This document shows, in pieces, positions 4,745 through 39,290 of a DNA stretch of 41,338 nucleotides. Under the pieces are notes generated by a model. That model did not search any database. It saw only the letters and a program-made list of their open reading frames with translations, and had not been told where the DNA came from. Position numbers and translations under genes: made by a program. Position 1 is the stretch's first letter. Each line of letters starts with the position of its first letter. The DNA is from Sulfurivirga sp. (GTDB lineage Bacteria > Pseudomonadota > Gammaproteobacteria > Thiomicrospirales > Thiomicrospiraceae): assembly GCF_015490265.1 (NCBI RefSeq), contig NZ_WFYD01000035.1, forward strand, positions 1 through 41,338, given 5' to 3'.

Positions 4745-4764
4745 TGGGGTCTCCCCCATTTTTG
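4745..4764 (+). terminator. Candidate intrinsic terminator after merA (within the repeat)
   Basis: TGGGG-TCTC-CCCCA hairpin followed by TTTTT, immediately after the stop codon. Confidence 0.5.
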
Positions 4765-4920
4765 CAGAGTCGGGTTTTCGGCCGCACTGGCAGCAGCTGA
4801 AAATGGCAGGGAAAAAGCCGAAAAACAGCCATTACAAGCCGATCGAATGGGGTCTCCCCCATTTTTACTGGATCAATTTCCAGCCGCGCTTCAAGTGGCC
4901 GAGAAAAACCTTGCAAAACG
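4746..4920 (+). repeat. Box element, paired copy: GGGGTCTCCCC at 4746-4756 and 4849-4859 (103-bp period)
   Basis: Both boxes continue CCATTTTT; first interior GCAGAGTCGGGTTTTCGGCC...GAAAATGGCAGGGAAAAAGCCG aligns with the copies at 20454 and 20921. Starts directly after the merA stop codon. Confidence 0.85.
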
Positions 4921-4939
4921 GTGCCTGCGGCGTTATAAA
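4911..4939 (+). promoter_or_regulatory. Candidate sigma70-type promoter for the copL-copA-copB genes
   Basis: TTGCAA (4911-4916), 17-nt spacer, TATAAA (4934-4939), about 50 nt upstream of the 4990 ATG; the -35 lies in the tail of the second repeat copy. Confidence 0.6.
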
Positions 4940-4989
4940 CAGGGTGAGGCCGCTGAAAAGCGCCGAATTTCCACGGACACGGTGTTGCC

Positions 4990-5343
4990 ATGCGCAAGTT
5001 TCTGATTCTTCTGCTGCTCTCTCTGCTGCCCTTTGTGGCCGGGGCGGGGGAGCAGGTGCGCGCAGTATCCAATGCAACACCGGCGCATGCTGCCATGCAG
5101 ATGGGCAAGGCTGCCCATGACATGGCCTGCTGTGACGGCCATACCACGCAGTGCGCTACCCATGACTGTGATCAGGGGTGTGACGCCAGCTGCTTTCTCA
5201 CCCACTGCACTTCCAGCGCGCACGTCATCATGCCGATGGCTATGGCCGTGCCTGAGCTGGTGGCCCGGTCCATCGCGCCTGTACTGATCGAATCCTTCCA
5301 TTCCGTTGCCGCCATTCCCGTCACCCCGCCTCCGCGGGTCTGA
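4990..5343 (+). CDS. CopL-like secreted Cys/His/Met-rich small protein
   Basis: Signal peptide MRKFLILLLLSLLPFVAGAG; CCDGHTTQCATHDCDQGCDASC cluster; directly upstream of copA/copB as in Xanthomonas copLAB. Confidence 0.65.
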   Translation: MRKFLILLLLSLLPFVAGAGEQVRAVSNATPAHAAMQMGKAAHDMACCDGHTTQCATHDCDQGCDASCFLTHCTSSAHVIMPMAMAVPELVARSIAPVLIESFHSVAAIPVTPPPRV

Positions 5344-5463
5344 ACCTTCCGTTGATTTTCCGCAGGATCAGTGTGTCCGTCTGATGCGCATCCCGTGCGT
5401 CCGACGCATCTGATCCGCACATGAAACCCTCTTGAATCAACCGCATGACGGAAGGAGTGCACC

Positions 5464-7383
5464 ATGAAAGACAAGTATCTGTCCCGTCGCCGCTTCATCA
5501 CTGGCGTGGCGACCGGCATCACCGCCAGCGTGCTGGGTATGCGCATTCCCAGTGTGTTCGCCGGAGAAATGACCCACCGCGGCCATCACGGCATGGGCAT
5601 GCGCCCCATGGCCCGCAGCGCCCCGCGCATTCTCAATGGTGAGCATGACATGGGCCCCGCCGACATTCTCACCGGCACCGAGTTCCATCTCACAATCGAC
5701 CGCACACCGGTCAATATCACCGGCAGGAAGGCCTGGGCCACCACCGTCAATGGCCGGATTCCGGGGCCGGTGCTGGTATGGCGCGAAGGGGATGAGGTGA
5801 CGCTGCATGTGACCAATAACCTGGATGAGGACACCTCCATCCACTGGCACGGCATCATCCTGCCCTACGACATGGACGGTGTGCCTGGTGTGAGCTTCCC
5901 GGGCATCAGGCCGGGTGAGACCTTCACCTACCGCTTCAAGGTGCAGCAGAGCGGCACCTACTGGTATCACAGCCATTCCGGCTTTCAGGAGCAGACGGGC
6001 CATTACGGCAGTATCGTCATCCTGCCGAAGGAGCCGGAGCCCATCGACTATGACGTGGACTACGTGATCCAGCTGTCCGACTGGTCGGACGAGGATCCGG
6101 AGACCATCTACGCCCATCTGAAGAAGAAGTCGGACTACTACAACATCAAGGAGCGCACGGTGTTCGACTTCTTCCGCGAAGTGCAGGAGAAGGGCTTTTC
6201 CAAGGCCTGGGCGGATCGGAAGATGTGGAACGAGATGCGCATGTCCGACCGGGATCTGTCGGATGTGACCGGCTATACCTACACCTATCTGATGAACGGC
6301 GCCAGCCCGGCGGCCCATTTCCGCGCCCTGTATCAGCCGGGGCAGAAGGTGCGCCTGCGGGTGATCAACAGCTCCGCCATGACCTTTTTCGACTTCCGCA
6401 TTCCGGGGCTGAAGATGACCGTGGTGGCCGCTGACGGTCAGCTGGTCAAGCCGGTGACGGTGGACGAGTTCCGCATCGGCGTGGCGGAGACCTACGACAT
6501 CGTGGTCGAACCCGGGGATGAAGGCCCCTATCCCATCTTCGCCCAGGCCATCGACCGCACCGGCTATGCGCTGGGGTCGCTGACCACCGATCCGAAACGG
6601 CTGGCCAAGGCCCCGCCCATGGATCCGCTGCCGGTGCTCACCCATGCCGACATGGGCATGGCCATGCACGGCATGAACCACAGCGGCATGGACATGAAGC
6701 AGGGTGGCCACGGCATGGGCGGCATGCGGCACGACGGCATGCAGATGAAACACGACATGCCGGGCATGAAGCATGAGATGGGCGCCATGAAACATGGCAT
6801 GGACATGGGCGATGAAAAGGTCATTCCCATGGACATGAACCCCGAGCTGCCGCAGGCCGATCTGCCCATCAGGAAGGGGCCGCACACCACCATGTGGGTG
6901 CAGAACCCGCAGTACCGGCTGGACGATCCGGGCCCCGGCCTGCGCAACAACGGCCGACGCGTGCTCACCTATGCCGATCTGAAGAACTACTACCCCACTG
7001 CCCACTGGCCTAAGCCGGAGCGGGAGATGGTGCTGCATCTGACCGGCAACATGGAGCGCTACATGTGGTCCATCAACGGCATTCCCTATGAGGAGGCCGA
7101 TCCGCTGGAGTTCATCTACGGCGAGCGGCTGCGGGTGACCTTCATCAACGACACCATGATGAACCACCCCATGCACCTGCACGGCATGTGGTCGGATCTG
7201 GAAACGGGCGATGAGAACCACATTCCGCGCAAGCACACGGTCATCGTCCAGCCCGGCGCCAAGCTTAGCATCCGCGTCAATGTGGATGCGCCCGGCCGCT
7301 GGGTGTTCCACTGCCACCTGCTCTACCACATGGGTGGCATGTTCCGTGAAGTGACCGTGGTCGACATGAAGCGCAAAGCATAA
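5464..7383 (+). CDS. copA: CopA-type copper resistance multicopper oxidase (Tat-exported)
   Basis: Tat motif SRRRFITGVATG; IHWHGI, HSHSGFQEQ, HPMHLHGMW, HCHLLYHMGGM copper motifs; Met/His-rich insert MGMAMHGMNHSGMDM...MKHGMDMG. Confidence 0.95.
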   Translation: MKDKYLSRRRFITGVATGITASVLGMRIPSVFAGEMTHRGHHGMGMRPMARSAPRILNGEHDMGPADILTGTEFHLTIDRTPVNITGRKAWATTVNGRIPGPVLVWREGDEVTLHVTNNLDEDTSIHWHGIILPYDMDGVPGVSFPGIRPGETFTYRFKVQQSGTYWYHSHSGFQEQTGHYGSIVILPKEPEPIDYDVDYVIQLSDWSDEDPETIYAHLKKKSDYYNIKERTVFDFFREVQEKGFSKAWADRKMWNEMRMSDRDLSDVTGYTYTYLMNGASPAAHFRALYQPGQKVRLRVINSSAMTFFDFRIPGLKMTVVAADGQLVKPVTVDEFRIGVAETYDIVVEPGDEGPYPIFAQAIDRTGYALGSLTTDPKRLAKAPPMDPLPVLTHADMGMAMHGMNHSGMDMKQGGHGMGGMRHDGMQMKHDMPGMKHEMGAMKHGMDMGDEKVIPMDMNPELPQADLPIRKGPHTTMWVQNPQYRLDDPGPGLRNNGRRVLTYADLKNYYPTAHWPKPEREMVLHLTGNMERYMWSINGIPYEEADPLEFIYGERLRVTFINDTMMNHPMHLHGMWSDLETGDENHIPRKHTVIVQPGAKLSIRVNVDAPGRWVFHCHLLYHMGGMFREVTVVDMKRKA

Positions 7384-7394
7384 GGAGGTTCATC

Positions 7395-8099
7395 ATGAAA
7401 CGGCATATTCAGGCATTCATCACCGGCGTCACCCTCATGGCCGCATCCCCCGGCAGCTGGGCCATGAAGACGGCTGACCCCTTCCTGGTCAAGTTCATGG
7501 CCGACAAGCTGGAAGTGGCCAATGACGCGGACAACACCAAAAGCTGGGACGTGCAGCTGTGGGCCGGCAAGGACTGGCACAAGCTGTGGCTCTATTCCGA
7601 AGGTGAGTCGGCAAAGGGTCAGACAGCGTCAGAGAACATGCTCGCCTACAGCCATCCCATCGCCCCCTTCTGGGACGCCCAGATCGGCTTTGGTCGGGAC
7701 GAGGCGCCCGGGGCCAGCTACAACTGGGGTGTGGTGGGCGTCAACGGTCTGGCGCCCTACTGGTTCGAGACCCGCGCCCATCTGCTGGTGGGCGAGGATG
7801 GCACCGCAGGGCTGCGGGCCAGTGCTGAGTATGAGGCGCTGCTGACCCAGTTTCTCATCCTCACCCCGGAGGTAGCAGTATCCGCCTACAGCGGCGACAT
7901 TGAAAAGATGGGCATAGGCAGTGGTCTGTCCAGCCTGTCTTTCGGCCTGCGGCTGCGCTATGAGATCCGCCGTGAGTTCGCCCCCTATGTGGGCGTGCAA
8001 TGGTCGCAGACTTACGGCAAAACCGCAGACTTCCGCCGTGCGGAAGGTGAAAAGACGGGCGACACCACCCTTGTGGCCGGTGTGCGCATCTGGTTCTGA
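7395..8099 (+). CDS. copB: CopB-type outer-membrane copper resistance protein
   Basis: Signal peptide; SWDVQLWAGKDWHKLWLYSEGE, GLRLRYEIRREFAPYVGVQW; follows copA. Confidence 0.9.
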   Translation: MKRHIQAFITGVTLMAASPGSWAMKTADPFLVKFMADKLEVANDADNTKSWDVQLWAGKDWHKLWLYSEGESAKGQTASENMLAYSHPIAPFWDAQIGFGRDEAPGASYNWGVVGVNGLAPYWFETRAHLLVGEDGTAGLRASAEYEALLTQFLILTPEVAVSAYSGDIEKMGIGSGLSSLSFGLRLRYEIRREFAPYVGVQWSQTYGKTADFRRAEGEKTGDTTLVAGVRIWF

Positions 8100-8113
8100 A
8101 AGGAGGGAATGAC

Positions 8114-8593
8114 ATGAATACAAAGCTACATACACTCACGCTGGCCACTCTTCTGGGGGCTTCCACAGTTTTTGCAGGCGGCAGTCATGATGGCGGCCAT
8201 GGCGACAGCCACTGGACGGCACCGCCCGAGGCCCAGAAGTTGCAGAACCCCATGCACAGGACGAAAGACACGCTCAGTGTCGGGCGCAAACTGTTCGGAC
8301 AGAACTGCGCCAGTTGCCATGGCCCATATGGTGAGGGAAATGGCCCCGCAGCCGCCAGCCTGAACCCAAAGCCCGCCAACCTGCGTGCCATGGCCGGGCA
8401 GCATCCGGATGGGGATTTCTTCTGGAAGATTGCCAATGGGCGTGGTTCCATGCCCGCCTTCAAGGGACGGTTGACGGACGCGCAGATCTGGCAGCTGGTG
8501 ACTTACATCCAGTCGTTGCCATTTACCGCGCCGCAGAAACCGTCACCCTTTGACCTCAATCATGGGCATGAAATGAAAAAAGGACATCACTGA
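8114..8593 (+). CDS. Periplasmic c-type cytochrome
   Basis: Signal peptide; heme motif CASCH (GQNCASCHGPYGEGNGPAA) and distal GSMPAFKGRLTDAQIWQLVTYIQSL. Confidence 0.9.
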   Translation: MNTKLHTLTLATLLGASTVFAGGSHDGGHGDSHWTAPPEAQKLQNPMHRTKDTLSVGRKLFGQNCASCHGPYGEGNGPAAASLNPKPANLRAMAGQHPDGDFFWKIANGRGSMPAFKGRLTDAQIWQLVTYIQSLPFTAPQKPSPFDLNHGHEMKKGHH

Positions 8594-8599
8594 CCATCA

Positions 8600-8622
8600 G
8601 GCCGCCGTCGGGCGGCCTTTTT
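8600..8622 (+). terminator. Intrinsic terminator after the cytochrome c gene
   Basis: GGCCGCC-GTCG-GGCGGCC followed by TTTTT. Confidence 0.85.
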
Positions 8623-8639
8623 GCAGGAGCCGAGAGAAC

Positions 8640-10148
8640 ATGAAAAGAAGAGACCTGATCAAACTCCTGGCCACCGGTGCTGTGATGCCGGCAGCCTCAC
8701 AGGCCATGAGCGGCATGGGGCCCATGATGATGGGCGGGCCGGGTGGCATGATGGGGGCGCGCATGCACCGCACCGCCCTGACCCCCGTGTCCGGCCAGCC
8801 GTTGCCGATTCCGCCTCTTTATGAGGGAGACATGAAAGCGGGCGTGCGCCACTACCGCCTCACCATCGGTGAGGCGGAGCTGCCCCTGTTTGCGGACGCC
8901 ATCACGGAGAGCTGGGCCGTGCAGGTACCCGGGACGGCACTGCCGTTTCTCGGGCCGACACTCGTGCTCAATCGGGGCGAGCAGGTGGCCCTCTCATGGC
9001 GCAATCATCTGGATACGGCCACCACCATGCATGGGCACGGCATGCATGTGCCGGGCGAAGCCGATGGCGGCCCCCATCAGTTGATTTTGCCAGGTATGGA
9101 CTGGACGGCCCGTTACCGGGTGGAGCAGCCCGCCTGCGCCAACTGGTATCACCCCCACCGCATGGGGATGACCGCCGAGCATGTCTATCGGGGGCTGGCG
9201 GGACTGCTGCTGATTCGGGACGGGTCTGAGGAGGCGCTGAATCTGCCCCGCACCTACGGTGTGGATGACATTCCGCTCGTGGTGCAGGACCGGGTCTTTG
9301 ACGCCGCCGGTCAGATTCATTACCGCCCCACCATGCACGATGTGCGCCGGGGCTGGTTCGGGGATGTGCTGCTGACCAATGGCGCGGTATCGCCAGTGTT
9401 CACCGCCCGGGCGGGACTGCTGCGGCTGCGCCTGCTCAATGGCAGCAACAGCGAAATCTGGCGCTTCACGCTGGACGATGGCAGCGTCATGCAGGTGATC
9501 GCCGGGGACAACGGTCTGATTGACCGGCCCATGCCGGTGCGCAGCGTCATGCTCAGCCCGGGCGAGCGGGCAGAGGTGGTGCTGGATCTCAATGGACGGG
9601 CCGGTCAGCGCCTGCGTCTGCGGGTAGAAGGTCTGATTGCCGGGCTGCGCAAAGATGCGTTGCGCATTGAAGTCGGCAAGCGTCCCGCGCCGGTCAGCCA
9701 ATTGCCTTCAAGCCTGACAGCCCCTGATCCCGTACCGGCACCTTTGGCGGAACTGCCGCGTCGCCACTTCACTCTGGGCGGGATGATGAACCTGACCATC
9801 AACGGCGCCAGCATGGACATGGACGTGATCAATGAGCGGGTGCCGCAAGGCCGCTGGGAAGTCTGGCAGGTGCGCAATGAAGGCATGGGCATGATGCGCA
9901 TGATGGGCATGCATCACAACTTCCATGTCCATGGCGGCAGTTTCCGTCTGCTGGCCCGCAATGGAAAGGCGCATTTCGCACCCCATGAGCGGGGGCTCAA
10001 GGATACCGTTCATCTGGCACCAGGGGATGAGGCCACCCTGCTGGTGCGCTTCCGCCACGCCGCGCCGGACAGCTCGCCGTTCATGTACCACTGCCACTTC
10101 CTCGAGCATGAGGACGCCGGCATGATGGGGCAGTTCACTGTTGCATAG
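8640..10148 (+). CDS. Second multicopper oxidase (CueO/FtsP-like), Tat signal, Met-rich N-terminus
   Basis: MKRRDLIKLLATGAVMPAA; MHGHGMHVPG, NWYHPHRMG, NFHVHGGSF, YHCHFLEHEDAGMMGQF motifs. Confidence 0.9.
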   Translation: MKRRDLIKLLATGAVMPAASQAMSGMGPMMMGGPGGMMGARMHRTALTPVSGQPLPIPPLYEGDMKAGVRHYRLTIGEAELPLFADAITESWAVQVPGTALPFLGPTLVLNRGEQVALSWRNHLDTATTMHGHGMHVPGEADGGPHQLILPGMDWTARYRVEQPACANWYHPHRMGMTAEHVYRGLAGLLLIRDGSEEALNLPRTYGVDDIPLVVQDRVFDAAGQIHYRPTMHDVRRGWFGDVLLTNGAVSPVFTARAGLLRLRLLNGSNSEIWRFTLDDGSVMQVIAGDNGLIDRPMPVRSVMLSPGERAEVVLDLNGRAGQRLRLRVEGLIAGLRKDALRIEVGKRPAPVSQLPSSLTAPDPVPAPLAELPRRHFTLGGMMNLTINGASMDMDVINERVPQGRWEVWQVRNEGMGMMRMMGMHHNFHVHGGSFRLLARNGKAHFAPHERGLKDTVHLAPGDEATLLVRFRHAAPDSSPFMYHCHFLEHEDAGMMGQFTVA

Positions 10149-10159
10149 GGGGCGTAGAA

Positions 10160-10393
10160 ATGGAGTTTCACGGGTTTGGATTCATGGGCATCTGGGGCTT
10201 TCTGTTCTGGATTGTCATGTTCGTGGTCATGTTCTATCTGCTGCGTCTTTTGCTGTCTCCCTTTTTACCGCAGGGGCGTACCAGGCGGGACGAGCGGGAG
10301 GAGGCGCTTGCAATCCTGAAGAAGCGCTTTGCCCGAGGTGAAATTGACGAGGAAGAATTTATCCGGCGCAAGCGCGCACTGGAGGAGGAATAG
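10160..10393 (+). CDS. SHOCT-domain small membrane protein
   Basis: One transmembrane segment followed by EREEALAILKKRFARGEIDEEEFIRRKRALEEE. Confidence 0.85.
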   Translation: MEFHGFGFMGIWGFLFWIVMFVVMFYLLRLLLSPFLPQGRTRRDEREEALAILKKRFARGEIDEEEFIRRKRALEEE

Positions 10394-10397
10394 GGCT

Positions 10398-12419: not shown

Positions 12420-12517
12420 TAGCTTTGGATTTTATCAATCTGTTTTCGGACGCTTGATTAACTTTGGAAGGGCGGTTGGTAAAGGAACAGTGTCTTTTCT
12501 ACAAGGCTACGAGCGAA

Positions 12518-12541
12518 AGGGGAGATGTCTCCCCTCTTTTT
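12518..12541 (+). terminator. Intrinsic terminator between the converging ATPase gene and efflux operon
   Basis: AGGGGAGA-TG-TCTCCCCT followed by CTTTTT. Confidence 0.75.
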
Positions 12542-12580
12542 GTCAGGTCGACAATTTTCTCCTTCCGTCACGAGAGGAGA
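12518..12580 (+). repeat. Diverged relative of the GGGGTCTCCCC element (tentative)
   Basis: GTCTCCCCTCTTTTTGTCAGGTCG resembles GTCTCCCCCATTTTTGCAAGGTCG of the copy at 20921; a second hairpin TCTCCT/AGGAGA (12558-12563 / 12575-12580) follows at a similar offset. Confidence 0.45.
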
Positions 12581-12598
12581 CGAGTCCTGTAGCTGGCC

Positions 12599-17113: not shown

Positions 17114-17115
17114 GT

Positions 17116-18324: not shown

Positions 18325-18368
18325 GGCCCACTCCTTGAGGATGTTGTGGGTCAGTCTATGCGGTCAAG

Positions 18369-18385
18369 CTGAAAGCAGGCTGAAA
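18369..18385 (-). promoter_or_regulatory. Candidate OmpR-family response-regulator operator upstream of the efflux operon
   Basis: Minus strand TTTCAG-CCTGC-TTTCAG, direct hexamers 11 bp apart, about 45 bp upstream of the czcC-like start, followed by CTTGACCGCATAGACT. Confidence 0.45.
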
Positions 18386-18386
18386 A

Positions 18387-20388: not shown

Positions 20389-20453
20389 GGCATGTCCGGC
20401 AAGTGGAGATGGAAATATTGTGCCGCAAAGGGGCGTCGAAGTCCCGTCTCAAT

Positions 20454-20625
20454 GGGGTCTCCCCCGATTTTGCAGAGTCGATTTTTCAAGCGTCCGGCTT
20501 GAGGCAGAAATAGCAGGAAAAGGCGGAGAAATGGTTGTCCAGGGACGCAGGAATGTTTTTGCAAGGTCGGTGTTTCGCCGCGCTGGAATGCGCGGTGAAT
20601 CGCCCTGAAAAGGCGGCTGTATGGG
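20454..20625 (+). repeat. Box element: full box at 20454-20464, second unit at 20556 with the box deleted
   Basis: GGGGTCTCCCCCGATTTTGCAGAGTCGATTTTTC...; second unit reads AATG|TTTTTGCAAGGTCGGTGTTTCG, as if 12 bp (GGGTCTCCCCCA) were lost. Confidence 0.8.
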
Positions 20626-20629
20626 GGTT

Positions 20630-20896
20630 TCAGGTGTCTGTGTAGTAGAGACGGGCGATCAGGTCGATCAGCCGTTCCAGCTGCAGCCCGAAGGCGTTGG
20701 GCGTGTCGTCTTCATTCAGCCCCTCGGTGGCCAGCAGGTCGGACAGGGCGTCCAGCAGCCTTTCCATGGTGTCGCGGTCCAGTTGCACGCCATGTCTGTC
20801 TCCTCGCAGGGGATGGGTCTTCAGAGGCATGATGCGTGTGTTGATCAGTTCAAGCTCGCTGCTGTTCAGAGTAAGCGTTGTCCGTGCAGGGTTCAT
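20630..20896 (-). CDS. 88-aa protein of unknown function, flanked on both sides by the box elements
   Basis: MNPARTTLTLNSSELELINTRIMPLKTHPLRGDRHGVQLDRDTMERLLDALSDLLATEGLNEDDTPNAFGLQLERLIDLIARLYYTDT; GGAGG 6 nt upstream of the ATG. Confidence 0.65.
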   Translation of the reverse strand: MNPARTTLTLNSSELELINTRIMPLKTHPLRGDRHGVQLDRDTMERLLDALSDLLATEGLNEDDTPNAFGLQLERLIDLIARLYYTDT

Positions 20897-20920
20897 GGCG
20901 TTCCTCCGGCTGCAGAAGAC

Positions 20921-21085
20921 GGGGTCTCCCCCATTTTTGCAAGGTCGGTGTTTCGTCGCGCGCCTCGACGCCGGGAAATGGTCGCAAAAAGCGGGCAAAT
21001 GGCCATTTCAGTGCGCTGGAACGGGGTCTCCCCTGATTTTACGGGATCGTGTGTCAGCCGCGCGGAACGGTGTCGGGGAAATGCG
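20921..21085 (+). repeat. Box element, paired copy: boxes at 20921-20931 and 21023-21033 (102-bp period)
   Basis: GGGGTCTCCCCCATTTTTGCAAGGTCGGTGTTTCG... and GGGGTCTCCCCTGATTTTACGGGATCG; interior GAAATGGTCGCAAAAAGCGGGCAAATGGCCATTTC aligns with the 4746 copy. Confidence 0.85.
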
Positions 21086-21088
21086 CCG

Positions 21089-21661
21089 TCAGGCGGGTTT
21101 TCGCGCCACCAGCCAGGCGTAGCGGCGTTTTTCGCCGTCTGTGTCTGGCAGCCAGCCTTCGCCGTGCACGTCCACCGTCCAGTCAGCGAAAACGGCAGTC
21201 AGCTCGCCGCTTTCGAGGTAGTAGTCGGGATTTTTCGGGGCGTTGGGCTGCACCGGGGCGAGGAAGGTCTGCCACAACAGCAGGCCGCCCGGCCTGACCA
21301 GCGCCCGGATGTCGTCGAAGGCGCTGCGGTCGAGCCAGCGGCTGATGGCCACCACGTCAAACTGCGCCTCGGGCCAAGGGCGCTGCTCCAGATCCACCTG
21401 CCGGGCGGTGATGGGCAGTTTGTAAGCCTGAGCATAGCGGTTGAGCAGCTCGACGGCCCGGTCGCTGATGTCCCAGGCGTCCACCTGCAGGCCGCAGCGG
21501 GCGAGAAAACGGGCGTTGCCGCCGAGGCCTGCGGCCAGATCCAGTGCCGTGCCGGTTAGCGGCAGCAGGCGGGTGTGCTGGCGCACCACCCAGGCCGGCT
21601 CGGCCAGGGTGGACAGTTCGGCGTCGCGGTATTTTTCGTTCCACTTGTCGCGAGTATGCAT
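21089..21661 (-). CDS. Class I SAM-dependent methyltransferase
   Basis: MHTRDKWNEKYRD; ALDLAAGLGGNARFLARCGLQVDAWDIS; FDVVAISRWLDR. Confidence 0.85.
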   Translation of the reverse strand: MHTRDKWNEKYRDAELSTLAEPAWVVRQHTRLLPLTGTALDLAAGLGGNARFLARCGLQVDAWDISDRAVELLNRYAQAYKLPITARQVDLEQRPWPEAQFDVVAISRWLDRSAFDDIRALVRPGGLLLWQTFLAPVQPNAPKNPDYYLESGELTAVFADWTVDVHGEGWLPDTDGEKRRYAWLVARKPA

Positions 21662-21665
21662 GGTG

Positions 21666-23117
21666 TCAGGCTTTCCAGAATGCGCGGGTGAAGATGACCA
21701 GCAGGGTGAACAGTTCGAGGCGGCCCAGCAGCATGGCGAAGGTGAGCAGCCATTTGGCCGCGTCCGGCAGGTGCTGGAAGTTGGCGCCGACTTCGCCGAG
21801 GCCGGGGCCGAGGTTGTTGAGCGTAGCGGCCACGGCGGAGAAGGCGGTGACGGTGTCCAATCCCAGCGCCATGAGCGCCAGCCCCAGCGCGCCGGAGATG
21901 AACACATAGAGGGAGAAGAAGCCCCACACGGCGGAGATGACGCTTTCGGGCACCACGCGACCGTTGAGTTTGAGCGGCATCAGCGCGTTGGGGTGGAGCA
22001 GGCGGACGATCTCGCGCAGGCCCTGCCGGTAGAGCAGCAGCACGCGGATGACCTTCATGCCGCCGCCGGTGGAACCGGCGGAACCGCCGATGAAGCTCAT
22101 CATCACCAGCATGACGGGCACGAAGGCGGGCCAGCTGAGGTAGTCGGTGCTGGCAAAGCCGGTGGTGGTGGCCAGCGAGATGGTCTGGAAGCTGGCGTAG
22201 CGCAGCGCCGTCTGCCAGTCGGGGTAGGTGTGGGTCAGCAGCAGATAGCCGGTGCTGATGAGAATGCCGGCGCTGAGCACGAAGGCGTAGGCGCGGAACT
22301 CCGGATCCAGCAGGTAGGTGCGCAGGCTCAGATGCCGCCAGGCGGTGAAGTGCAGGGCGAAATTGACCCCGGCGATGAACATGAACACCATGGCGATGGT
22401 CTCGATGGCCACGCTGTCGAAGTGGCCGATGCTGGCGTCATGGGTGGAGAAGCCGCCGATGGCCACGGTGGAGAAGGCGTGTCCGATGGCGTCGAAGGTG
22501 TTCATGCCGGCGGCCCAGTAGGCCAGTGCGCACAGGACGGTGAGGGCTACGTAGATGAGCCACAGGGTGCGTGCCGTCTCGCTGATGCGCGGGGCCAGCT
22601 TGCTGTCCTTCATGGGGCCGGGGGTTTCGGCGCGGTAGAGCTGCATGCCGCCGATGCCCAGCATGGGCAGGATGGCCACCGCCAGCACGATGATGCCCAT
22701 GCCGCCGAGCCACTGCAGCTGTTGGCGGTACCACAGAATGGCGTGGGGCAGGTCATCCAGCCCGGTCATGACAGTGGCGCCGGTGGTGGTTAGGCCGGAG
22801 AAGGATTCGAAGATGGCGTCGGTGATGCTCAGCTCCACGCCCCGGGCGAAGTGCAGCGGAATCGCACCCACCAGTCCCAGAACCGTCCAGAAGGTGATGA
22901 CCACCAGAAAGCCGTCCTTGATCTTGAGATCGGCGCGGGCATGGCGGGTGAGGTACCACAGCAGCCCGCCCACCGTAAGCGTCAGCAGCAGGGTGGCGGA
23001 AAAGGAGAACAGCGCCCCGTCGCCGTAGATGAGCGCCACCACGATCGGTGGCACCAGACTGAGACTGTAGACGGTGATCAGGATGCCGATGATTTTGAGG
23101 ATCATCTTCAGGTGCAT
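21666..23117 (-). CDS. trkH: Trk potassium uptake protein TrkH
   Basis: [59 protein letters not shown]; selectivity-filter segments [15 protein letters not shown] and [15 protein letters not shown]. Confidence 0.95.
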
Positions 23118-23118
23118 G

Positions 23119-28027: not shown

Positions 28028-28028
28028 C

Positions 28029-30478: not shown

Positions 30479-30481
30479 GGT

Positions 30482-31405: not shown

Positions 31406-31896
31406 GCTTTCCGTTCCTTGCGGTATTTCTGCAGCAGGCGGTTGCGCTTGAGGCCAGAGAGGTGGTCGATGAACAGCACGCCGTTGAGATGGTCGATCTC
31501 GTGCTGCAGGCACACCGCCAGCAGGTCTTCCGCCTCGATCTCCACCGGCTGACCGTCACGGTCCAGCCCGCGCACCTTCACTTTGGAGGGGCGGCGCACC
31601 TTGGCGTAGATGCCGGGCAGGGAGAGGCAGCCCTCTTCGTATTCGATCAGCCCGTCGCTGGCGACGATCTCCGGATTGACCAGCGCAATGGGCTGGCTCT
31701 TGTCCTCGGTGACGTCCGCCACCAGCACGCGGATGTCACGACCCACCTGCGGGGCGGCTAGGCCGATGCCCGGGGCGTCGTACATGGTGTAGAGCATGTC
31801 GTCGATCAGATTGGCGATCTCGTCCGACATCTCCACCGGCTTGCACTGGGTGCGCAGGATTTCGTCAGGGTAGAGGCGGATGTCCAGCTTGTCCAT
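31402..31896 (-). CDS. def: Peptide deformylase
   Basis: [41 protein letters not shown]. Confidence 0.98.
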
Positions 31897-31907
31897 GGGG
31901 CGGTGTG

Positions 31908-31936
31908 TTCAATTCGTTGTCCGGACGTTTATTATA
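31908..31936. promoter_or_regulatory. Candidate divergent promoter region between def and dprA
   Basis: Minus strand TATAAT at 31936-31931 (towards def); plus strand TTCAAT-N16-TATTAT at 31908-31935 (towards dprA). Confidence 0.4.
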
Positions 31937-31942
31937 GGCGCC

Positions 31943-33034
31943 ATGGACGAGATGACCCGCATCTTCTGGCATCAGGCGCTGCAGGCTGCACTGACCGCGC
32001 CACAGGCGCAGGCGCTGTGGCAGACATGGGGGGCGACGGCGGTGGAGGTACCCGTGGCCGAACTGGTGGCGCAGGGGCTGACGGACAGTCAGGCGGCCCG
32101 TTTCCGGCAGGTGGATGATGAGGCGCTGGGCCGTTTCGAGGCATGGCTGGGGCAGGAACATCACTGGCTGATGACCTGTCTGGATGCGGACTGGCCGCCG
32201 CTGCTGGCGCAGTTGAGCGACGCACCGGCGATGCTGCTGGGGCTGGGCAGCCGTGCGTTGCTGTCGGATCCACAGATCGCCATTGTGGGGGCGCGCCATG
32301 CCAGCCGAGAGGGGCTGCGCAACGCGGAAACCTTCGCCGAGGCGCTGTCGCAGGCGGGCATCGCCGTCACCAGCGGGCTGGCGCACGGCATCGATGCGGC
32401 CGCCCATCGGGGGGCGCTGAAAGGACCGGGCGGCACCGTGGCGGTAGTGGGCACCGGGCCGGACCGGGTCTATCCGGCGGCCAACCGCGAGCTGGCTCAC
32501 CAGATTGCCGAACAGGGTGCGCTGGTGTCGGAGTTTCCGCTGGGCACGCCGCCCAGGGCGCAGAACTTTCCCCGCCGCAACCGCATCGTCAGCGGCCTGA
32601 GCGTGGGCACGCTGGTGGTGGAGGCGGCCGAACGCAGCGGCTCGCTCATCACCGCCCGGCTGGCCAGCCAGCAGGGGCGGGAGGTGTTCGCCATTCCCGG
32701 CTCCATCCACAACCCCATGGCTCGGGGCTGTCACAGGCTGATCCGTCAGGGCGCCAAGCTGGTGGAGACGGCGCAGGACATTCTCGAAGAGGTCTTTCCC
32801 CAGTTGCAGGCGCGGCTGGCGCTTGATGAGACGGCGCCTGCCGTGGATACGGCATCGCTTTCGACCGAGGCGCGGCAGCTGCTGGATCAGGTGGACTTCG
32901 ACCCGGTGTCGCTGGACGAGCTGGCAGTGCGCACCCGCTGGCCGGTGTCCAGTCTGCAGGGGGCGTTGCTGGAGCTTGAGCTGGCCGGCTGTGTGGAGGC
33001 GCTCCCCGGCGGGCAGTATCGAAGAATTTGCTGA
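31943..33034 (+). CDS. dprA: DNA processing protein DprA
   Basis: IAIVGARHASREGLRNAETFAEALSQAGIAVTSGLAHGIDAAAHRGAL; FPRRNRIVSGLSVGTLVVEAAERSGSLITARLA. Confidence 0.96.
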   Translation: MDEMTRIFWHQALQAALTAPQAQALWQTWGATAVEVPVAELVAQGLTDSQAARFRQVDDEALGRFEAWLGQEHHWLMTCLDADWPPLLAQLSDAPAMLLGLGSRALLSDPQIAIVGARHASREGLRNAETFAEALSQAGIAVTSGLAHGIDAAAHRGALKGPGGTVAVVGTGPDRVYPAANRELAHQIAEQGALVSEFPLGTPPRAQNFPRRNRIVSGLSVGTLVVEAAERSGSLITARLASQQGREVFAIPGSIHNPMARGCHRLIRQGAKLVETAQDILEEVFPQLQARLALDETAPAVDTASLSTEARQLLDQVDFDPVSLDELAVRTRWPVSSLQGALLELELAGCVEALPGGQYRRIC

Positions 33035-33123
33035 TCGGCGCTTGTGGCGGTGCGTTTTTCCGCTACCTTATTAAATAAACACGCAGGCGCATGCTGCGCC
33101 ATGATCACTATCTGGAAGCGTCT

Positions 33124-35490
33124 ATGAAGAATCTGGTCATTGTGGAATCGCCCGCCAAGGCGAAGACCATCGAGAAATTCCTCGGCAAGGATTTCACCGT
33201 CCGTTCCAGCTACGGGCATATCCGCGATCTGCCCAAGAAGGGGATGGGGGTGGACATTGAACACGGCTTCAAGCCCACCTATGAGATCTCGCCGGACAAG
33301 AAGAAGGTGGTGGCCGAGTTGCGCAAGCTGGCCAAGGAGGCGGAGGCCGTCTGGCTGGCCACGGATGAGGACCGCGAGGGGGAGGCCATCGCCTGGCATC
33401 TGGCCGAGGCGCTCAAGCTGGACAAGGCGACCACGCGGCGCATCGTGTTCCATGAGATCACCAGGCCGGCCATCGAGCAGGCGGTGGCCGCGCCGCGCAC
33501 CATTGACATGAACCTGGTGGACGCCCAGCAGGCGCGCCGCATTCTCGACCGCATCGTCGGTTTCGAACTCTCACCCATTCTGTGGAAGAAGATCCGCACG
33601 GGGCTTTCCGCCGGTCGGGTGCAGTCGGTGGCGGTGCGCCTGATCGTGGAGCGGGAGCGGGAGATTCAGGCCTTCGAGCCGGAGATCAGCTTCAAGGTGG
33701 CCGGCGAGCTGCTCAATGGCAGCGGCGAGGTGGTGCCCGTGCGGCTGGATGCGGCCTTTGACTCCGAATCCGCGGCCCACACTTTTCTGGAGGCAGCCGG
33801 ACTCAGCCGCATGACCGTGGCCAGCGTGGAGAAGAAGCCGGCGAAACGCAGCCCCAAACCACCGTTTACCACCTCCACCCTGCAGCAGGAGGCGGCGCAG
33901 AAGCTGGGCTTTTCCGTGCGTCAGACCATGAGTCTGGCCCAGCGGCTGTATGAGGCGGGCAAGATCACCTACATGCGTACCGACTCGGTCAACCTGTCGG
34001 AGCTGGCCATCGCGCAGGCGCGGGAGGTGATCAGCGCCGAGTATGGCCCTGAGTTCGTGCAGACGCGCCACTACAAGAGCAAGAGCGCCAATGCGCAGGA
34101 GGCCCATGAGGCCATCCGACCCACGGATCTGGCCGCAGAGGTCGTCTCCTCCGACCGCAATGAACAGCGTCTGTATGAGCTGATCCGCCGTCGCACGCTG
34201 GCCTCCCAGATGGCAGACGCCCGTCTTGAGCGCACCACGGTGCAGGTGACCCTGTCGGAGCGACCCGAGAAACTGGTGGCCAAAGGGGAGGTGATCCAGT
34301 TTCCCGGCTTCATGCGCGCCTATGGGGATGAGGAGGCCAAAAACACCCTGCTGCCGGCGCTGACCGAAGGGGAGGCGCTGTCGCTGGGCACCCTCAGCGC
34401 CCGTCAGAGCTTCAGCCGCCCGCCTGCCCGCTACAACGAGGCGGCGCTGGTGCGCACGCTGGAGGAGCTGGGCATCGGCCGGCCGTCCACCTACGCGCCT
34501 ACCATCGACACCATTCAGCAGCGCGGCTATGTGGTCAAGGAGGATCGCGAAGGCGTCGAGCGCAGCTACCGGGTGCTGACGCTGGATGACAGTGGGCAGG
34601 TGACCTCGGAGACCCGCACTGAGACTACCGGCGCCGAGCGGGCCAAGCTGTTCCCCACCGACATCGCCGGGGTGGTGACCGACTTTCTCGTCAAGCACTT
34701 CGGCGAGATCATGGACTACCACTTCACCGCCCATGTGGAGGAGGAGCTGGATGAGATCGCCGCCGGCGAGCTGGCCTGGCGCAGGATGCTGGAAGCGTTT
34801 TACGCCCGCTTCCATCCCAAGGTGGAGGCCGCCGAGCATGTCTCCCGCGAGGAAGCGGGTCAGGTGCGTCATCTGGGCACCGACCCGAAGACCGGCAAGC
34901 CGGTGATGGTCAAGGTGGGCCGCTATGGGGCCTATGTTCAGCTGGGCGATGGGGGCGAGGATGGTGAAGAAAAGCCGGTCTTTGCCAGCCTCAAACCCGG
35001 TCAGCGCATGGACACGCTCACGCTGGAGGAGGCGCTGGAGCTGTTCAAGCTGCCGCGGGAAATCGGCCGGATGCCGGAGGATTTTTCCGTCACCGCCGCC
35101 GACGGCACCCTGTTCGAAGTGAAGAAAGGGGCGACGCTGACCGCCAAACGCGGGCCCTTCGGGCCCTATCTGGAGTTCGGCCCCAAACAGTATGCGCCGC
35201 TCAAGGGCTATGACCCGCTTTCCATGACGCTGGAGGAAGCGGTGGATGTGGTCAAGGCTCATCTGGCGGCGCAGGCGGACAAGATCGTGCGCAGTTTCCC
35301 GGGCACGAGCATCAAGATTCTCAAGGGGCGCTGGGGACCCTACATCACCGATACGGAAACGAAGAAGAACGCCAAGATCGCCAAGAACGAAGATCCCCTG
35401 GCGCTGACGCTGGAAGAGTGCCGAAAGCGCTTGGATGAAGCGCCGGAGCCGAAGCGTCGCGGGCGTCGCGTGGCACGCAGGAAATCCTGA
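33124..35490 (+). CDS. topA: DNA topoisomerase I
   Basis: MKNLVIVESPAKAKTIEKFLGKDFTVRSSYGHIRDLP; GKITYMRTDSVNLS; C-terminal basic repeats without obvious zinc ribbons. Confidence 0.97.
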   Translation: MKNLVIVESPAKAKTIEKFLGKDFTVRSSYGHIRDLPKKGMGVDIEHGFKPTYEISPDKKKVVAELRKLAKEAEAVWLATDEDREGEAIAWHLAEALKLDKATTRRIVFHEITRPAIEQAVAAPRTIDMNLVDAQQARRILDRIVGFELSPILWKKIRTGLSAGRVQSVAVRLIVEREREIQAFEPEISFKVAGELLNGSGEVVPVRLDAAFDSESAAHTFLEAAGLSRMTVASVEKKPAKRSPKPPFTTSTLQQEAAQKLGFSVRQTMSLAQRLYEAGKITYMRTDSVNLSELAIAQAREVISAEYGPEFVQTRHYKSKSANAQEAHEAIRPTDLAAEVVSSDRNEQRLYELIRRRTLASQMADARLERTTVQVTLSERPEKLVAKGEVIQFPGFMRAYGDEEAKNTLLPALTEGEALSLGTLSARQSFSRPPARYNEAALVRTLEELGIGRPSTYAPTIDTIQQRGYVVKEDREGVERSYRVLTLDDSGQVTSETRTETTGAERAKLFPTDIAGVVTDFLVKHFGEIMDYHFTAHVEEELDEIAAGELAWRRMLEAFYARFHPKVEAAEHVSREEAGQVRHLGTDPKTGKPVMVKVGRYGAYVQLGDGGEDGEEKPVFASLKPGQRMDTLTLEEALELFKLPREIGRMPEDFSVTAADGTLFEVKKGATLTAKRGPFGPYLEFGPKQYAPLKGYDPLSMTLEEAVDVVKAHLAAQADKIVRSFPGTSIKILKGRWGPYITDTETKKNAKIAKNEDPLALTLEECRKRLDEAPEPKRRGRRVARRKS

Positions 35491-35501
35491 AGGAGGGGGC
35501 C

Positions 35502-35972
35502 ATGAAACCTGAACCGAACCGGGAGACGGAGGTCAAGCTGGACATCGGCCTTGCGGTGCTGCTCACCATGGTGGGCGTGGTATTGCTGGCGGTGCTGCTG
35601 CTGGCGCTGATGGCCTTCGCGCCGGTGATTCTGGCGCTGCTGTCGGCGTGGATCGCCTGGACCGAGTGGCGCCGCACTCGCCGGCTGGGGCTGGACCATC
35701 GGGGCTACCGCTGGCTGGGGCGGTTCTGGTTCGTGGCTTTCTGGAGTATTCTCGGCGTGGCCGGCGTGCTCATCTTCGCCGCGTGGATGGAGTATGCGCT
35801 GGTCTACAACGAGATTAGGGTGGCCATCGCGACCGCGTGGCACAAGTACACTTGGCCCTATCTGTGGACCTTCGGCGGCGTGTTCGTGCTGGTTCTGCTG
35901 GTGCTGGGCGTCGAGCGGGCGTGGATTACGGTGAGGGGGCGCTTCGAGCAGTGGGTGCGTGCCCATGAATGA
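35502..35972 (+). CDS. Small membrane protein of unknown function
   Basis: 156 aa, multiple hydrophobic segments; AGGAGG upstream (gaaggaggggccATG). Confidence 0.6.
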   Translation: MKPEPNRETEVKLDIGLAVLLTMVGVVLLAVLLLALMAFAPVILALLSAWIAWTEWRRTRRLGLDHRGYRWLGRFWFVAFWSILGVAGVLIFAAWMEYALVYNEIRVAIATAWHKYTWPYLWTFGGVFVLVLLVLGVERAWITVRGRFEQWVRAHE

Positions 35973-36375
35973 ACGCCGGCGGCAGATCGGCATCGGTCTG
36001 ACGGGACTGATACTGTGGGCCATGAGCCTGCCGTGGGTCGTGCAGATCGTGCAATTCGGGCTGGCGCGGGGCACCGGTTCCGCCATGGACATGCTGGTGG
36101 TGGCGGCCATGATCGCCATGAGCGTGTCGGTGCTGGCATGGATCTGTCAGCTGTGCCTGCCCGGTCGGGTGGGGCGGCTGCGCTGGTGGCTGATCGGCGT
36201 GCTGCTGGGGCTGGCGGTGTATGGCTGGATCAGCGTCAATGTGCTCATGGCGCCGGAAAAGGTGTTTGACGGCATGCCGCTGTGGCAGGTTGCGGTGATG
36301 ACGCTGGGGCCGGTGGGGCTGACCGGCTGGCTGCTGCTCAGTCTGCCCTATTACTGGGGGCTGTTCCGCCGCTGA
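35965..36375 (+). CDS. Small membrane protein of unknown function
   Basis: MNERRRQIGIGLTGLILWAMSLPWVVQIV; four hydrophobic segments; 8-nt overlap with the preceding ORF. Confidence 0.6.
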   Translation: MNERRRQIGIGLTGLILWAMSLPWVVQIVQFGLARGTGSAMDMLVVAAMIAMSVSVLAWICQLCLPGRVGRLRWWLIGVLLGLAVYGWISVNVLMAPEKVFDGMPLWQVAVMTLGPVGLTGWLLLSLPYYWGLFRR

Positions 36376-36417
36376 GCCGGCCGGCATCGCGCTGGTCGGG
36401 CGCTGTTCCGGGGCCGG

Positions 36418-39222
36418 TCAGATGCTGTCGTCTGCCTGCAGGCGTGCTTCCATTTCTTCGGTCAGCAGTGGCCTGCTGAACAGGTAGCCTTGGAGCAGAT
36501 CCACGTTCAGCTGGTGCAGGGCCTCGGCCTGCTCTTCGGTCTCCACACCCTCGGCCACCACTTCCAGACCCAGCGCATGGGCGAAGTTGACCGCGTGTTC
36601 CACGATGATGCGGTCCTTGTCGCTGTGGAGCATGCCTTTGACGAAGCGCAGGTCAATCTTGAGCTGATCCAGCGGCAGGCGGCTGACCAGGTCAAGGTTG
36701 GCGTGGCCGGTGCCGAAGTCGTCCAGCGACAGGTGACAGCCCATCTGGTCGAGCAGGTGGATAGCCTCGTTCACCTCCGGGCTGTCCTCAGCCACCATGG
36801 TTTCGGTCAGCTCGAGCGTGGCGTCGGCCGGAGCGATGCCGTGCTTTTCCAATGTGGGGCAGATCTGCGCCATGTAGGCGCGGCTGCGCAGCGTGGCGGC
36901 GGAGAGGTTGAACGCCAGCGAGCGGCCGCGGGTCCAGCCCTGCTGCTGCCAGCGGCTCCAGGTGGCCAGCGCCGTGTGCAGCACCCATTCGTCAATGCCG
37001 CGGATCAGTCCGGTCTCTTCCGCCAGCGGGATGAATTCCGCAGGTGAGACCCATTCCCCTTCATGCTGCCAGCGCAGCAGCACCTCGAAGCTCTCCCAGC
37101 GTCCGGTGCGGGCATTGACCTTGGGCTGCCATGCCAGCTGGAAACCGTCGGTGCGCAGGGCGTGTCGCAGCCCGGCCAGCAGGCGGCTGCGTCGGTCCAG
37201 ATCCTGTGCCAGGGAGGCGTCATAGACGCGCCAGTCCTGATCGCGCACCTTGTGCTTGATGGAGAGCATGGCCGCATCGGCGGCCTTGATGAGGGTGACC
37301 CAGTCGTCGGCGTGTCGGGGCCAGGCGGCGGCGCCGATGGTGATGCCCACCTGCAGGGTCATCTTCTCGATGGCGAAGGGTTCGCGCACGGCTTCAGAAA
37401 TGCGGGCGGCCAGTGTATCCGGCGTGTCGGCATCACCGGGCCAGCAGAGCAGGAACTCATCCCCGCCGTAGCGGCCGACGAAGGCATCTTCCGGCAGCAG
37501 GTTTTTCAGTCGATGGGCCAGTTCCTGCAACAGGCGATCGCCCACCGGATGGCCGAGACTGTCGTTGATGGCCTTGAAGTTGTCCAGATCAAGAAACAGC
37601 AGCCAGAAGGGGCGTTTCTGCTCAATCTGCCGACGCAGCTGCTCAATGAAGGTGTGGCGGTTGAGCAGTTCGGTGAGCGGGTCCAGCCGGCTGAGCCGCT
37701 CGATTTCGGCGCGGGCCCGTTCTTCCTCGGTGATGTCGGAGAAGATGCCGATATAGCCGATCTTTTCGCCCCGCTCGTCCTGGAGCACGGCCGCGGTGAG
37801 CCGTTCCGGGTAGATTTCGCCATTGGCGCGGCGGTTCCACAGCACCACCGAGATGCTGCCTTCGCGGCAGAGGGTCTGCCAGAAGCGTTCGTAGAAGGCT
37901 TTGTCATGGCGGCCGGATTTGAGCAGGGTGGGGCTTTTGCCCAGCACGTCTTTCTCCCGGTAGCCGGTGATTTGCTCGAAAGCGGGGTTGACGGCGACGA
38001 TGCGGTTGTCGGGATCGGTGATCATGATGGCCAGCGGGGCGTGTTCGAACAGCTGGGCGTAGATGGTCAGCTGCCGTTTCTGCTGCTCCAGCTGGTCGAT
38101 CTGCTCGCGGGTGCGGCTGAGCAGCTGGCTGAGGGTGCGGCTGAGCACGCCCACTTCGTCCTTACGCCGCAGTTCGGGGAGCTTGAGCGGCTCGTGCCCG
38201 GCGAGGATGCGGCGGGCGTGTTCAGTGAGTGTTTCCAGCGGATGAAAGAAATGGTTGACCAGCACGAAAAACAGCAGAGTGATGGTGGCCAGGGCGACGA
38301 TGAGCACGGCGGTGCTGTTTTCCACGAAGCTCCGCGCTTCGGCAAAGGCGCTCTCCACCGGCTGGCGCACGGCGATGATCCAGTCCAGTCCGGGCAGTTC
38401 GTGGTGCGCCTTGTAGAGGAATTGAGTCAGATAGGGGCGGTTGTCGTCCGGCCAGACGGTCACACCACTCCAGCCGCCGCGCAGCACGGCCTGACGGAAG
38501 GCGGTCATGCCGTCAAAGGTCATGGCGTGGGAGGGCAGTTTTTCGGTGCCCATGAGCAGGCGGCCGGTGTGGTCCAGCACCAGAATTTCGCTGTCGCCGA
38601 TGTGGCTGAGTTCGGCAATGCGGTGGCGGGCGGCGAAGGCGAAATCCCAGCCCAGATGCATGCACAGCACGCCAGCCAGCTTCCCGTTGCTGTCGAGCAC
38701 GGGGGCGGAGATGTCCATCAGCCGCAGGGGCAGGTCGTCCCATTTGGGTTTGGGCATCAGCTTCGCCAGCAGAAAGGCGTCGTGCACATTGCCTAAATGC
38801 AGCCCTTTCTTCCCTTCGATGAACCATTCCCGATGGGCGACGTTCTTGCCGGTGAGCAGGTTGCCCGTGTCCACGATGATGGTGCCGTTGGCGTCGGTCA
38901 TGCCGATCCAGGCGATGGTGGGGTCGGTGTCGCGTATCCGTTCGAGCAGTTTCCGCCGGTCGGCCATGGAGATGTCGGGGTCGGTCAGGCGGGGCAGCTG
39001 GCTGAGCAGTTGCACCTGATCGGCGTGGGTGCGCAGGGTGGCCACCAGCTGGTCGTTCATGCGCTGGGCGATCTGGCACAGCAGCTCGGCGGCGTGCCGG
39101 TGAATCAGCGCTTCGGTCTGGCGGGTCTGGTACTGGGTGACCCAGACGAGCATGAGCGCCAGCGCCACCACCAGTGCGGCCAGCAGTCTGAAGCGAATGG
39201 AATGGAGGTTGAAAAAGCCCAC
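36418..39222 (-). CDS. Membrane-bound Cache-PAS-GGDEF-EAL cyclic-di-GMP protein
   Basis: Two flanking TM segments around a periplasmic sensor; PAS (YAQLFEHAPLAIMITD); GRYGGDEFLL; EVLLRW, LELTETMVAE, LDDFGTGHANL, GYLFSRPL. Confidence 0.92.
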   Translation of the reverse strand: MGFFNLHSIRFRLLAALVVALALMLVWVTQYQTRQTEALIHRHAAELLCQIAQRMNDQLVATLRTHADQVQLLSQLPRLTDPDISMADRRKLLERIRDTDPTIAWIGMTDANGTIIVDTGNLLTGKNVAHREWFIEGKKGLHLGNVHDAFLLAKLMPKPKWDDLPLRLMDISAPVLDSNGKLAGVLCMHLGWDFAFAARHRIAELSHIGDSEILVLDHTGRLLMGTEKLPSHAMTFDGMTAFRQAVLRGGWSGVTVWPDDNRPYLTQFLYKAHHELPGLDWIIAVRQPVESAFAEARSFVENSTAVLIVALATITLLFFVLVNHFFHPLETLTEHARRILAGHEPLKLPELRRKDEVGVLSRTLSQLLSRTREQIDQLEQQKRQLTIYAQLFEHAPLAIMITDPDNRIVAVNPAFEQITGYREKDVLGKSPTLLKSGRHDKAFYERFWQTLCREGSISVVLWNRRANGEIYPERLTAAVLQDERGEKIGYIGIFSDITEEERARAEIERLSRLDPLTELLNRHTFIEQLRRQIEQKRPFWLLFLDLDNFKAINDSLGHPVGDRLLQELAHRLKNLLPEDAFVGRYGGDEFLLCWPGDADTPDTLAARISEAVREPFAIEKMTLQVGITIGAAAWPRHADDWVTLIKAADAAMLSIKHKVRDQDWRVYDASLAQDLDRRSRLLAGLRHALRTDGFQLAWQPKVNARTGRWESFEVLLRWQHEGEWVSPAEFIPLAEETGLIRGIDEWVLHTALATWSRWQQQGWTRGRSLAFNLSAATLRSRAYMAQICPTLEKHGIAPADATLELTETMVAEDSPEVNEAIHLLDQMGCHLSLDDFGTGHANLDLVSRLPLDQLKIDLRFVKGMLHSDKDRIIVEHAVNFAHALGLEVVAEGVETEEQAEALHQLNVDLLQGYLFSRPLLTEEMEARLQADDSI

Positions 39223-39249
39223 CTGTGGTTCACAGCCTCACCAAAACAT

Positions 39250-39290
39250 GGGGTCTCCCCTGATTTTACCGGGTGGGCTCGGCACTGCTC
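39250..39290 (+). repeat. Solo GGGGTCTCCCC box element
   Basis: ATGGGGTCTCCCCTGATTTTACCGGG; matches ACGGGGTCTCCCCTGATTTTACGGG at 21021. Confidence 0.75.

Follow-up and report, generated by a model that had tools for sequence, protein, structure and literature searches.

Boxes and genes in the window

The window, the whole stretch of 41,338 bp analysed here from a Sulfurivirga genome (G000), carries six exact copies of the box GGGGTCTCCCC, all on the + strand and, as a sequence-only reading of this DNA had reported, including two pairs whose members lie 103 and 102 bp apart. The first pair comprises unit 1 (4744..4848, +; box at 4746-4756, T-tract at 4759-4763 and a phased tail running to the next box) and unit 2 (4847..4975, +; box at 4849-4859, T-tract at 4862-4866 and a phased tail with an approximate right end). 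Unit 3 (20452..20555, +; box at 20454-20464 and a phased tail) has an orthologous box in the related genome G001. It adjoins a box-less unit (20556..20670, +; right end approximate) in which the TTTTTGCAAGGTCGG head and the tail are kept; 12 bp are missing from G000 precisely where G001 has its intact box. The second pair is formed by unit 4 (20919..21022, +; box at 20921-20931, with tail) and unit 5 (21021..21140, +; box at 21023-21033), the tail of which overlaps the 3' end of a methyltransferase-domain gene (21089-21907, -). Unit 5 is absent from G001, which has one unit fewer. Unit 6 (39248..39375, +; box at 39250-39260) is solo, and its A/T-rich tail, with an approximate right end, runs to the 3' end of hisI (39349-39798, -). 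The window also includes dprA (31880..33034, +; DNA_processg_A plus DprA_WH), a competence-associated gene still kept in G000.

We found no Rfam match within the window, and the fold z-scores lie near zero (-0.33 to 0.35), with no unusual RNA fold; an RNA structure or terminator was rejected on these grounds. A promoter was rejected as well, there being no upstream conservation past position -3 of the box. A literature search found no relevant paper on the family, and the earlier statement that it matches no named family agrees with these results.

Abundance and strictness of the box

The material analysed consisted of the stretches around listed box copies together with whole-genome counts. 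The whole genome contains 210 exact copies of GGGGTCTCCCC (106 + and 104 -) and none of the reversed control, and 101 copies were found in a 346-kb sample for which an order-3 Markov model predicts 0.12. With a 30-bp weight matrix, 111 copies score at least 14, lowering the threshold to 4 adds just 6, and Markov-simulated sequence yields about none; the match scores thus show a sharp gap, decaying copies being absent. The family is real, numerous, mostly intergenic and regularly spaced, as had been proposed. The further claim that all boxes lie between genes is true of the window but not of the genome, where ~31% of the boxes fall inside open coding frames (88% for random positions).

A one-sided, helically phased tail

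Each unit is one-sided, the head ACGGGGTCTCCCCYRWTTTTRC being followed by A/T tracts with a 10.5-bp period that reach ~+127. Tract centres in G000 are at 14.8, 30.6, 45.3, 56.4, 67.2, 77.0, 87.1, 97.5, 107.3, 117.3 and 127.3, and the regular 10.5-bp region is ~80 bp long. Phase coherence of the tracts is R=0.87, against a null maximum of 0.29, and R=0.92 for 30 copies within coding frames. Tails are alike in phase rather than in sequence identity, and a bend model with provisional parameters predicts for those of G000 a curvature roughly double the value for shuffled DNA (55 versus 26 deg). Solo copies and copies within genes have the same architecture of head plus phased tail.

These observations alter the picture given by the sequence-only reading, which took the unit to be an interior of 92 bp with a box on either side. 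The interiors do resemble each other, but what they share is the A/T phasing and a conserved head (~25 bp). The same kind of tail also follows solo boxes and the box that ends each array, so the bracketed unit must be given up. Nor does a solo box look like the product of recombination between two boxes, since the solo copies (35/111) retain full phased tails.

Within arrays, box-to-box spacings fall into helical-turn steps of 80-83, 90-94, 102-103, 111-115 and 121-123 bp (quantisation R=0.82 at a period of 10.1, for 35 adjacent spacings <130 bp), so that the arrays keep helical register. Strong DNA gyrase sites and BIME-2 elements have comparable features, namely a length of ~130 bp, A/T phased at ~10.5 bp and intergenic arrays, and BIMEs are bound by gyrase (PMC6379681). 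It might be thought that the boxes are themselves strong gyrase sites, the phased DNA being wrapped by the GyrA C-terminal domains as in BIMEs and the Mu strong gyrase site, a reading that we consider unlikely. The 130-bp gyrase motif with periodic G/C flanks (PMC6379681) and species-specific cleavage by gyrases (PMC12324340) would fit it, as would genus g4 (G006), in which a palindromic core has phased tracts on both sides (phased-flank box ACCAGGCCTGGT). However, gyrase motifs are symmetric and degenerate about the cleavage centre (47+36+47 bp), whereas the present units combine a strict, non-degenerate and species-specific box with a one-sided tail and its shorter regular region, and we rejected the gyrase reading on this mismatch of architecture. 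Nor would a strict box be expected to be replaced in concert between congeners if its reader were so conserved an enzyme.

Different boxes at the same sites in related genomes

Between G000 and G001, mismatches amount to 5/187 in the box and 289/1570 in the tail, and to 8.9% in the flanks, the box figure being biased downwards because selection of the 17 pairs compared required a recognisable box in each genome. The congeners G002 and G003 lack GGGGTCTCCCC and possess boxes of their own, GGGGTCCCCGACTTTTT and GGGGTCCCCCTAAWWTTT, whose tracts are arranged in almost the same way, so that three boxes are distributed across three congeneric lineages. The G002 tract centres are at 14.5, 29.0, 44.7, 55.5, 65.6, 76.1, 86.3, 95.9, 105.4, 116.9 and 127.2, and the geometry in G003 is similar (20 sites).

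Where flanks can be aligned, G002 sites match the G000 boxes in position and orientation; 7 of the 8 projectable sites lie <=200 bp from a G000 box, compared with 1 of 65 random positions (Fisher P=4e-8). At hemD, coaBC, murE and lpd the G002 box occupies the alignment column of the G000 box to within one residue, and at hemD and murE the local alignment contains no net insertion of element size, which indicates that the sites evolve in place. An empty-site search in G002 and G003 upstream of window position 21096 met with a loss of synteny at that place. The G002 sites are evenly spaced, ~11 kb apart (CV 0.56 versus 0.97 expected, on contigs C4, C5 and part of C6 only), and box density is 0.08-0.12/kb. 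A polar signal of the Chi or KOPS kind was rejected on the mixed strands in G002 (61+/75-).

The mobile or amplified element suggested by the sequence-only reading, with direct boxes at its ends, would imply orthologous sites that are empty in relatives, and what hemD and murE show is an occupied site with a different box. A family of this kind, whether MITE-like or of the REP/BIME type mobilised by a RAYT transposase, seems to us highly improbable, and for individual sites it is already largely refuted. High copy number, mostly intergenic location, tandem units and the gain and loss of units within arrays between G000 and G001 are what it would predict, and an in-frame expansion of 3 units in the prmC loop is an exception to the insertion-free pattern. 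Against it stand the coding-sequence sites that share a column in congeners with different boxes, the score gap and the tails that agree in phase rather than identity; a MITE or other insertion was rejected on the first two of these, and REP/RAYT on the finding of no Y1 (IS200-type) transposase (PF01797) in the genome by a search in which positive controls were detected.

Among other relatives, no clear enriched box was found in a 98-kb sample of G004 or a 120-kb sample of G005, and a candidate box in G007, GGGACTGGGGATTTTG, has no phased tails (6 copies). The G000 and G002 boxes had no match in viral contigs. Matches to a 20-mer in Clostridiales and Dehalococcoidia MAG contigs were taken as chance because these contigs have 48% GC and are without arrays or a phased tail. 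The motif CAGGCCTG occurs family-wide, with 400-1170 copies in many genomes; it is an over-represented palindrome, lacks phased flanks in G008 and is about as genic in relatives as random positions. Such a motif recalls cyanobacterial HIP1, which is likewise genome-wide and replaceable by alternate palindromes in related species (PMC4390886). That the boxes themselves are HIP1-like iterated motifs, kept by a methyltransferase and mismatch repair, is nevertheless very improbable: HIPs are plain palindromes, and the boxes of the window's genus, GGGGTCTCCCC included, fall short of full palindromes, are under-represented in genes and belong to a longer asymmetric unit with a ~110-bp phased tail.

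Resemblance to DNA uptake sequences

Several of these traits are found in the uptake signal sequences (USS) of Haemophilus and other Pasteurellaceae, in which a strict core is followed 3' by two AT-rich segments about one helical turn apart, subclades have their own dialects, and the dispersed and relatively evenly spaced sites are not insertions, those in genes evolving in place (PMC1626085, PMC12616744, PMC7811141). Neisseriaceae DUS also show dialects (PMC3630211), as genome-wide boxes differing by species, but they are ~10-13 bp long and lack a flanking AT motif (PMC3630211, PMC1626085, PMC12616744). The boxes might thus be USS/DUS-like signals read in natural transformation, with a species-specific core, helically spaced 3' AT tracts and dialects spread through biased uptake and recombination. 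We regard this as possible but doubtful. Both the lineage-specific core, with dialects at sites that are not insertions, and the 3' tracts in helical spacing from the core are indeed present here. Dialects at orthologous sites, the even G002 spacing and the family-wide abundance of CAGGCCTG also speak for it, and G002 has ComEC, a secretin and a PilB-type ATPase. Yet the corresponding domains (PF03772, PF00263 and PilB-type PF00437) were not found in G000 or G001, between which the boxes are conserved, and G003 is without secretin and PilB; of the competence genes considered, G000 has DprA but no detectable outer-membrane secretin, PilB or ComEC. The boxes are, in addition, about ten times sparser than USS (~1/kb), about 10 phased tracts extend over ~110 bp where USS have 2 over ~20 bp, and the studies cited here describe no USS arrays in helical register.

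A possible signal of chromosome architecture

Related species use a different box but retain these sites, which suggests a protein that reads and wraps such DNA. We propose, with a probability of about one half, that the boxes mark a directional signal of DNA architecture present throughout the chromosome, and that they are recognised by a putative DNA-wrapping protein that organises the nucleoid or chromosome and for which they would act as architectural anchors. This proposal would accommodate the computed copy number, one-sided phasing, helical quantisation and box constraint between G000 and G001. It would equally fit boxes that differ by species and keep almost the same tract geometry, the conservation of site position and orientation, and the even G002 spacing. 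The strict head of ~20 bp would be read by a sequence-specific protein and, since A/T tracts follow at helix-repeat intervals over ~110 bp, bending or wrapping of the DNA would start on that side of the box and stay in one plane. As neighbouring boxes of an array lie 8-12 helical turns apart, successive complexes would share one face and leave the phased track unbroken.

Noc/NBS, SlmA and MatP/matS provide general precedents: in each, a single chromosomal protein reads short, strict sites that number from dozens to hundreds. To our knowledge, a phased ~110-bp tail is lacking there, and the sites are regional in distribution. Rather tentatively, then, the boxes may represent an undescribed class of architecture site, in which, every ~10-15 kb, a strict box fixes the register of a one-sided wrap of ~110 bp. 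Such a site would be multiplied into arrays in helical register in some species, be re-coded in concert with a putative recogniser in each lineage, keep its positions and orientation, and be independent of DNA uptake.

The architectural proposal is strained by the change of dialect at ~100 sites, which is more easily explained for uptake sequences than for a structural site because biased uptake spreads a new form. The signal might have arisen as a DNA-uptake-type sequence, or share ancestry with one, before the uptake machinery was lost from the lineage; it would then have been retained, and multiplied into arrays, after the loss of transformation genes. A chromosome-wide signal with so precise a mechanical signature, in which ten phased A/T tracts accompany a box, occurs in at least four species, and could serve as a test case for whether bacteria use phasing of the nucleosome-positioning kind to place a specific wrapped complex. 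The box switches between species as the sites stay put, and the system may therefore also be a test case for the joint change of a recognition code and more than 100 sites.

Copy number and anatomy of the box

The sequence-only reading had listed six intact copies of an 11-bp box, GGGGTCTCCCC, in the window, and each was confirmed as an exact match on the + strand (4746, 4849, 20454, 20921, 21023 and 39250). The genome to which the window belongs as contig C35 (G000; 1.72 Mb in 141 contigs) contains 210 copies of this word and none of its reversed control. Copies of the longer word GGGGTCTCCCCYRWTTTT number 183 in G000 and 42 in the congener G001 (Thiotrichales MAG, JALVTA01), and none was found in the remaining relatives tested. 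The sample examined in detail, 346 kb, comprised the window and 40 stretches surrounding listed copies. In it, a weight matrix spanning positions -3 to +26 detected 111 copies at a score of at least 14, 99 of them with a perfect box; lowering the score to 4 added only 6 copies, no tail of decaying boxes was seen in the scores of this sample, and Markov-simulated sequence yielded about none.

The consensus of the box and its first flanking bases is A-C-GGGGTCTCCCC-Y-R-W-TTTT-R-C. Downstream, the A/T fraction oscillates with a period of 10.4-10.6 bp until about +127, in solo boxes as well as in array boxes at the first, middle and last positions; upstream of solo boxes no such oscillation was found. 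Individual tails agree in phase (R = 0.87, versus a null maximum of 0.29), and for the 30 copies inside coding frames R reaches 0.92, so that coding sequence accommodates both the box and its tracts.

Between G000 and G001, whose flanking DNA is 91.1% identical, 17 box pairs mismatch at 5 of 187 positions in the box (a figure biased downwards, since the pairs were selected for recognisable boxes in both genomes), 4 of 85 in the T-tract, 22 of 136 from +18 to +25 and 289 of 1570 in the tail. The gap in the matrix scores backs constraint on the box independently of these pairs.

Gain and loss of units in arrays

Same-strand neighbours are spaced by 80-83, 90-94, 102-103, 111-115 or 121-123 bp, with longer spacings near 200 bp; adjacent spacings below 130 bp (n = 35) give R = 0.82 at a period of 10.1, and arrays thus keep helical register. 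All five opposite-strand neighbour pairs found were convergent. Most arrays correspond between G000 and G001, with units gained or lost: box 21023 and its unit are absent from G001, and at 20556 a box-less unit has a 12-bp gap exactly at an intact G001 box, plausibly a loss at a GGGG..CCCC hairpin. Between the box clusters lies a small conserved ORF (20630-20897, - strand; MNPARTTLTLNSSELEL...), whose conservation with G001 exceeds that of its surroundings. In the prmC/hemK gene of G000 (L080 2984-3180, C15), three boxes set 93 bp apart, equal to 31 codons or about 9 turns, form an array that expands a loop in frame and leaves the reading frame open; its ortholog in the congener G003 (L153) has a single unit.

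Dialects at orthologous sites

The most enriched words in 400 kb of the congener G002 belong to a different box, GGGGTCCCCGACTTTTT, which has 136 copies in that genome and was not found in any other genome searched, and the box of G003 is GGGGTCCCCCTAAWWTTT (18 exact copies). One G003-type box also lies in a viral-collection contig (L218, IMG/VR 3300024520_000887, 3988-4005). The one-sided tail is common to all three dialects, with tract centres at 14.8/30.6/45.3/56.4/67.2/77.0/87.1/97.5 in G000, at 14.5/29.0/44.7/55.5/65.6/76.1/86.3/95.9 in G002, and at similar positions in 20 G003 sites (R = 0.88 at a period of 10.8).

Flanks could be aligned to the G000 sample for 8 G002 sites. For 7 of these a G000 box is found no more than 200 bp away, versus 1 of 65 random positions (Fisher P = 4e-8), and for 6 of the 7 it lies within 26 bp in identical orientation. 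The two boxes share an alignment column in hemD, coaBC and lpd and are one column off in murE, and neither hemD nor murE has a net element-size insertion around the box in the G000/G002 alignment, which argues that the sites are old and have evolved in place while the box sequence was replaced. On contigs C4, C5 and part of C6, the G002 sites occur at even intervals, with a mean of 11.4 kb and a CV of 0.56 versus 0.97 +- 0.11 expected.

Possible functions of the box units

These sequence facts are firm. The best-supported reading, to which we assign a probability of about one half, is that a sequence-specific protein might read the box and then bend or wrap the ~110 bp that follow, keeping helical register, the sites spread along the chromosome acting as architectural anchors. 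Gyrase sites resemble the box units in that phasing extends over ~130 bp, but differ in being symmetric and degenerate (PMC6379681).

The main rival, which we consider rather unlikely, is that the boxes are an uptake sequence, perhaps ancestral. They fit the description of the Pasteurellaceae uptake signal sequences, which have a core and 3' AT segments at helical spacing, differ in dialect between lineages and are not insertions (PMC1626085; PMC12616744). However, the defining uptake machinery, namely ComEC (PF03772), the secretin (PF00263) and a PilB-type ATPase, has no match in the whole genomes of G000 and G001, where the boxes are nevertheless conserved, so that uptake alone is insufficient as an explanation. 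That neither of two independent MAGs yielded a match is strong evidence of absence, though not conclusive. GspH was likewise not found in G000; DprA is present there, encoded inside the window. A PilT/PilU-like pair was found at C8:2562-4454 of the same genome. All three components are present in G002; G003 has ComEC, and its secretin and PilB were not found.

Motifs in the wider family

Among 63 genomes of the same family (G008, G009, G061 and G077 are examples), a palindrome, CAGGCCTG, reaches 400-1170 copies in many and tens or fewer in others, and members of one genus can differ in this way. It may be an uptake sequence or a HIP-like palindrome, and is treated here as a related layer that is possibly distinct from the genus boxes. 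Flanks vary between genomes: ACCAGGCCTGGT in G006 (genus g4) has phased A/T tracts on both sides, G009 shows mainly one tract per side, and G008 none. The G008 motif falls in genes about as often as random positions do. The G009 sample (L190-L195) contains ACCAGAACCAGA-type words in 15 copies, which probably belong to a single tandem repeat. In G007 (genus g5) the word GGGACTGGGGATTTTG is enriched, and a head-to-head pair forms a perfect palindrome (L172 3512-3521); phased tails were not shown in 6 copies. G006 has, in addition, a further family of palindromic repeats, AGGCTAAAGCCT / GCCTTCGCCCC / CCTGCGCCCC, which forms arrays with periods of 84-156 bp (L180, L182 and L183).
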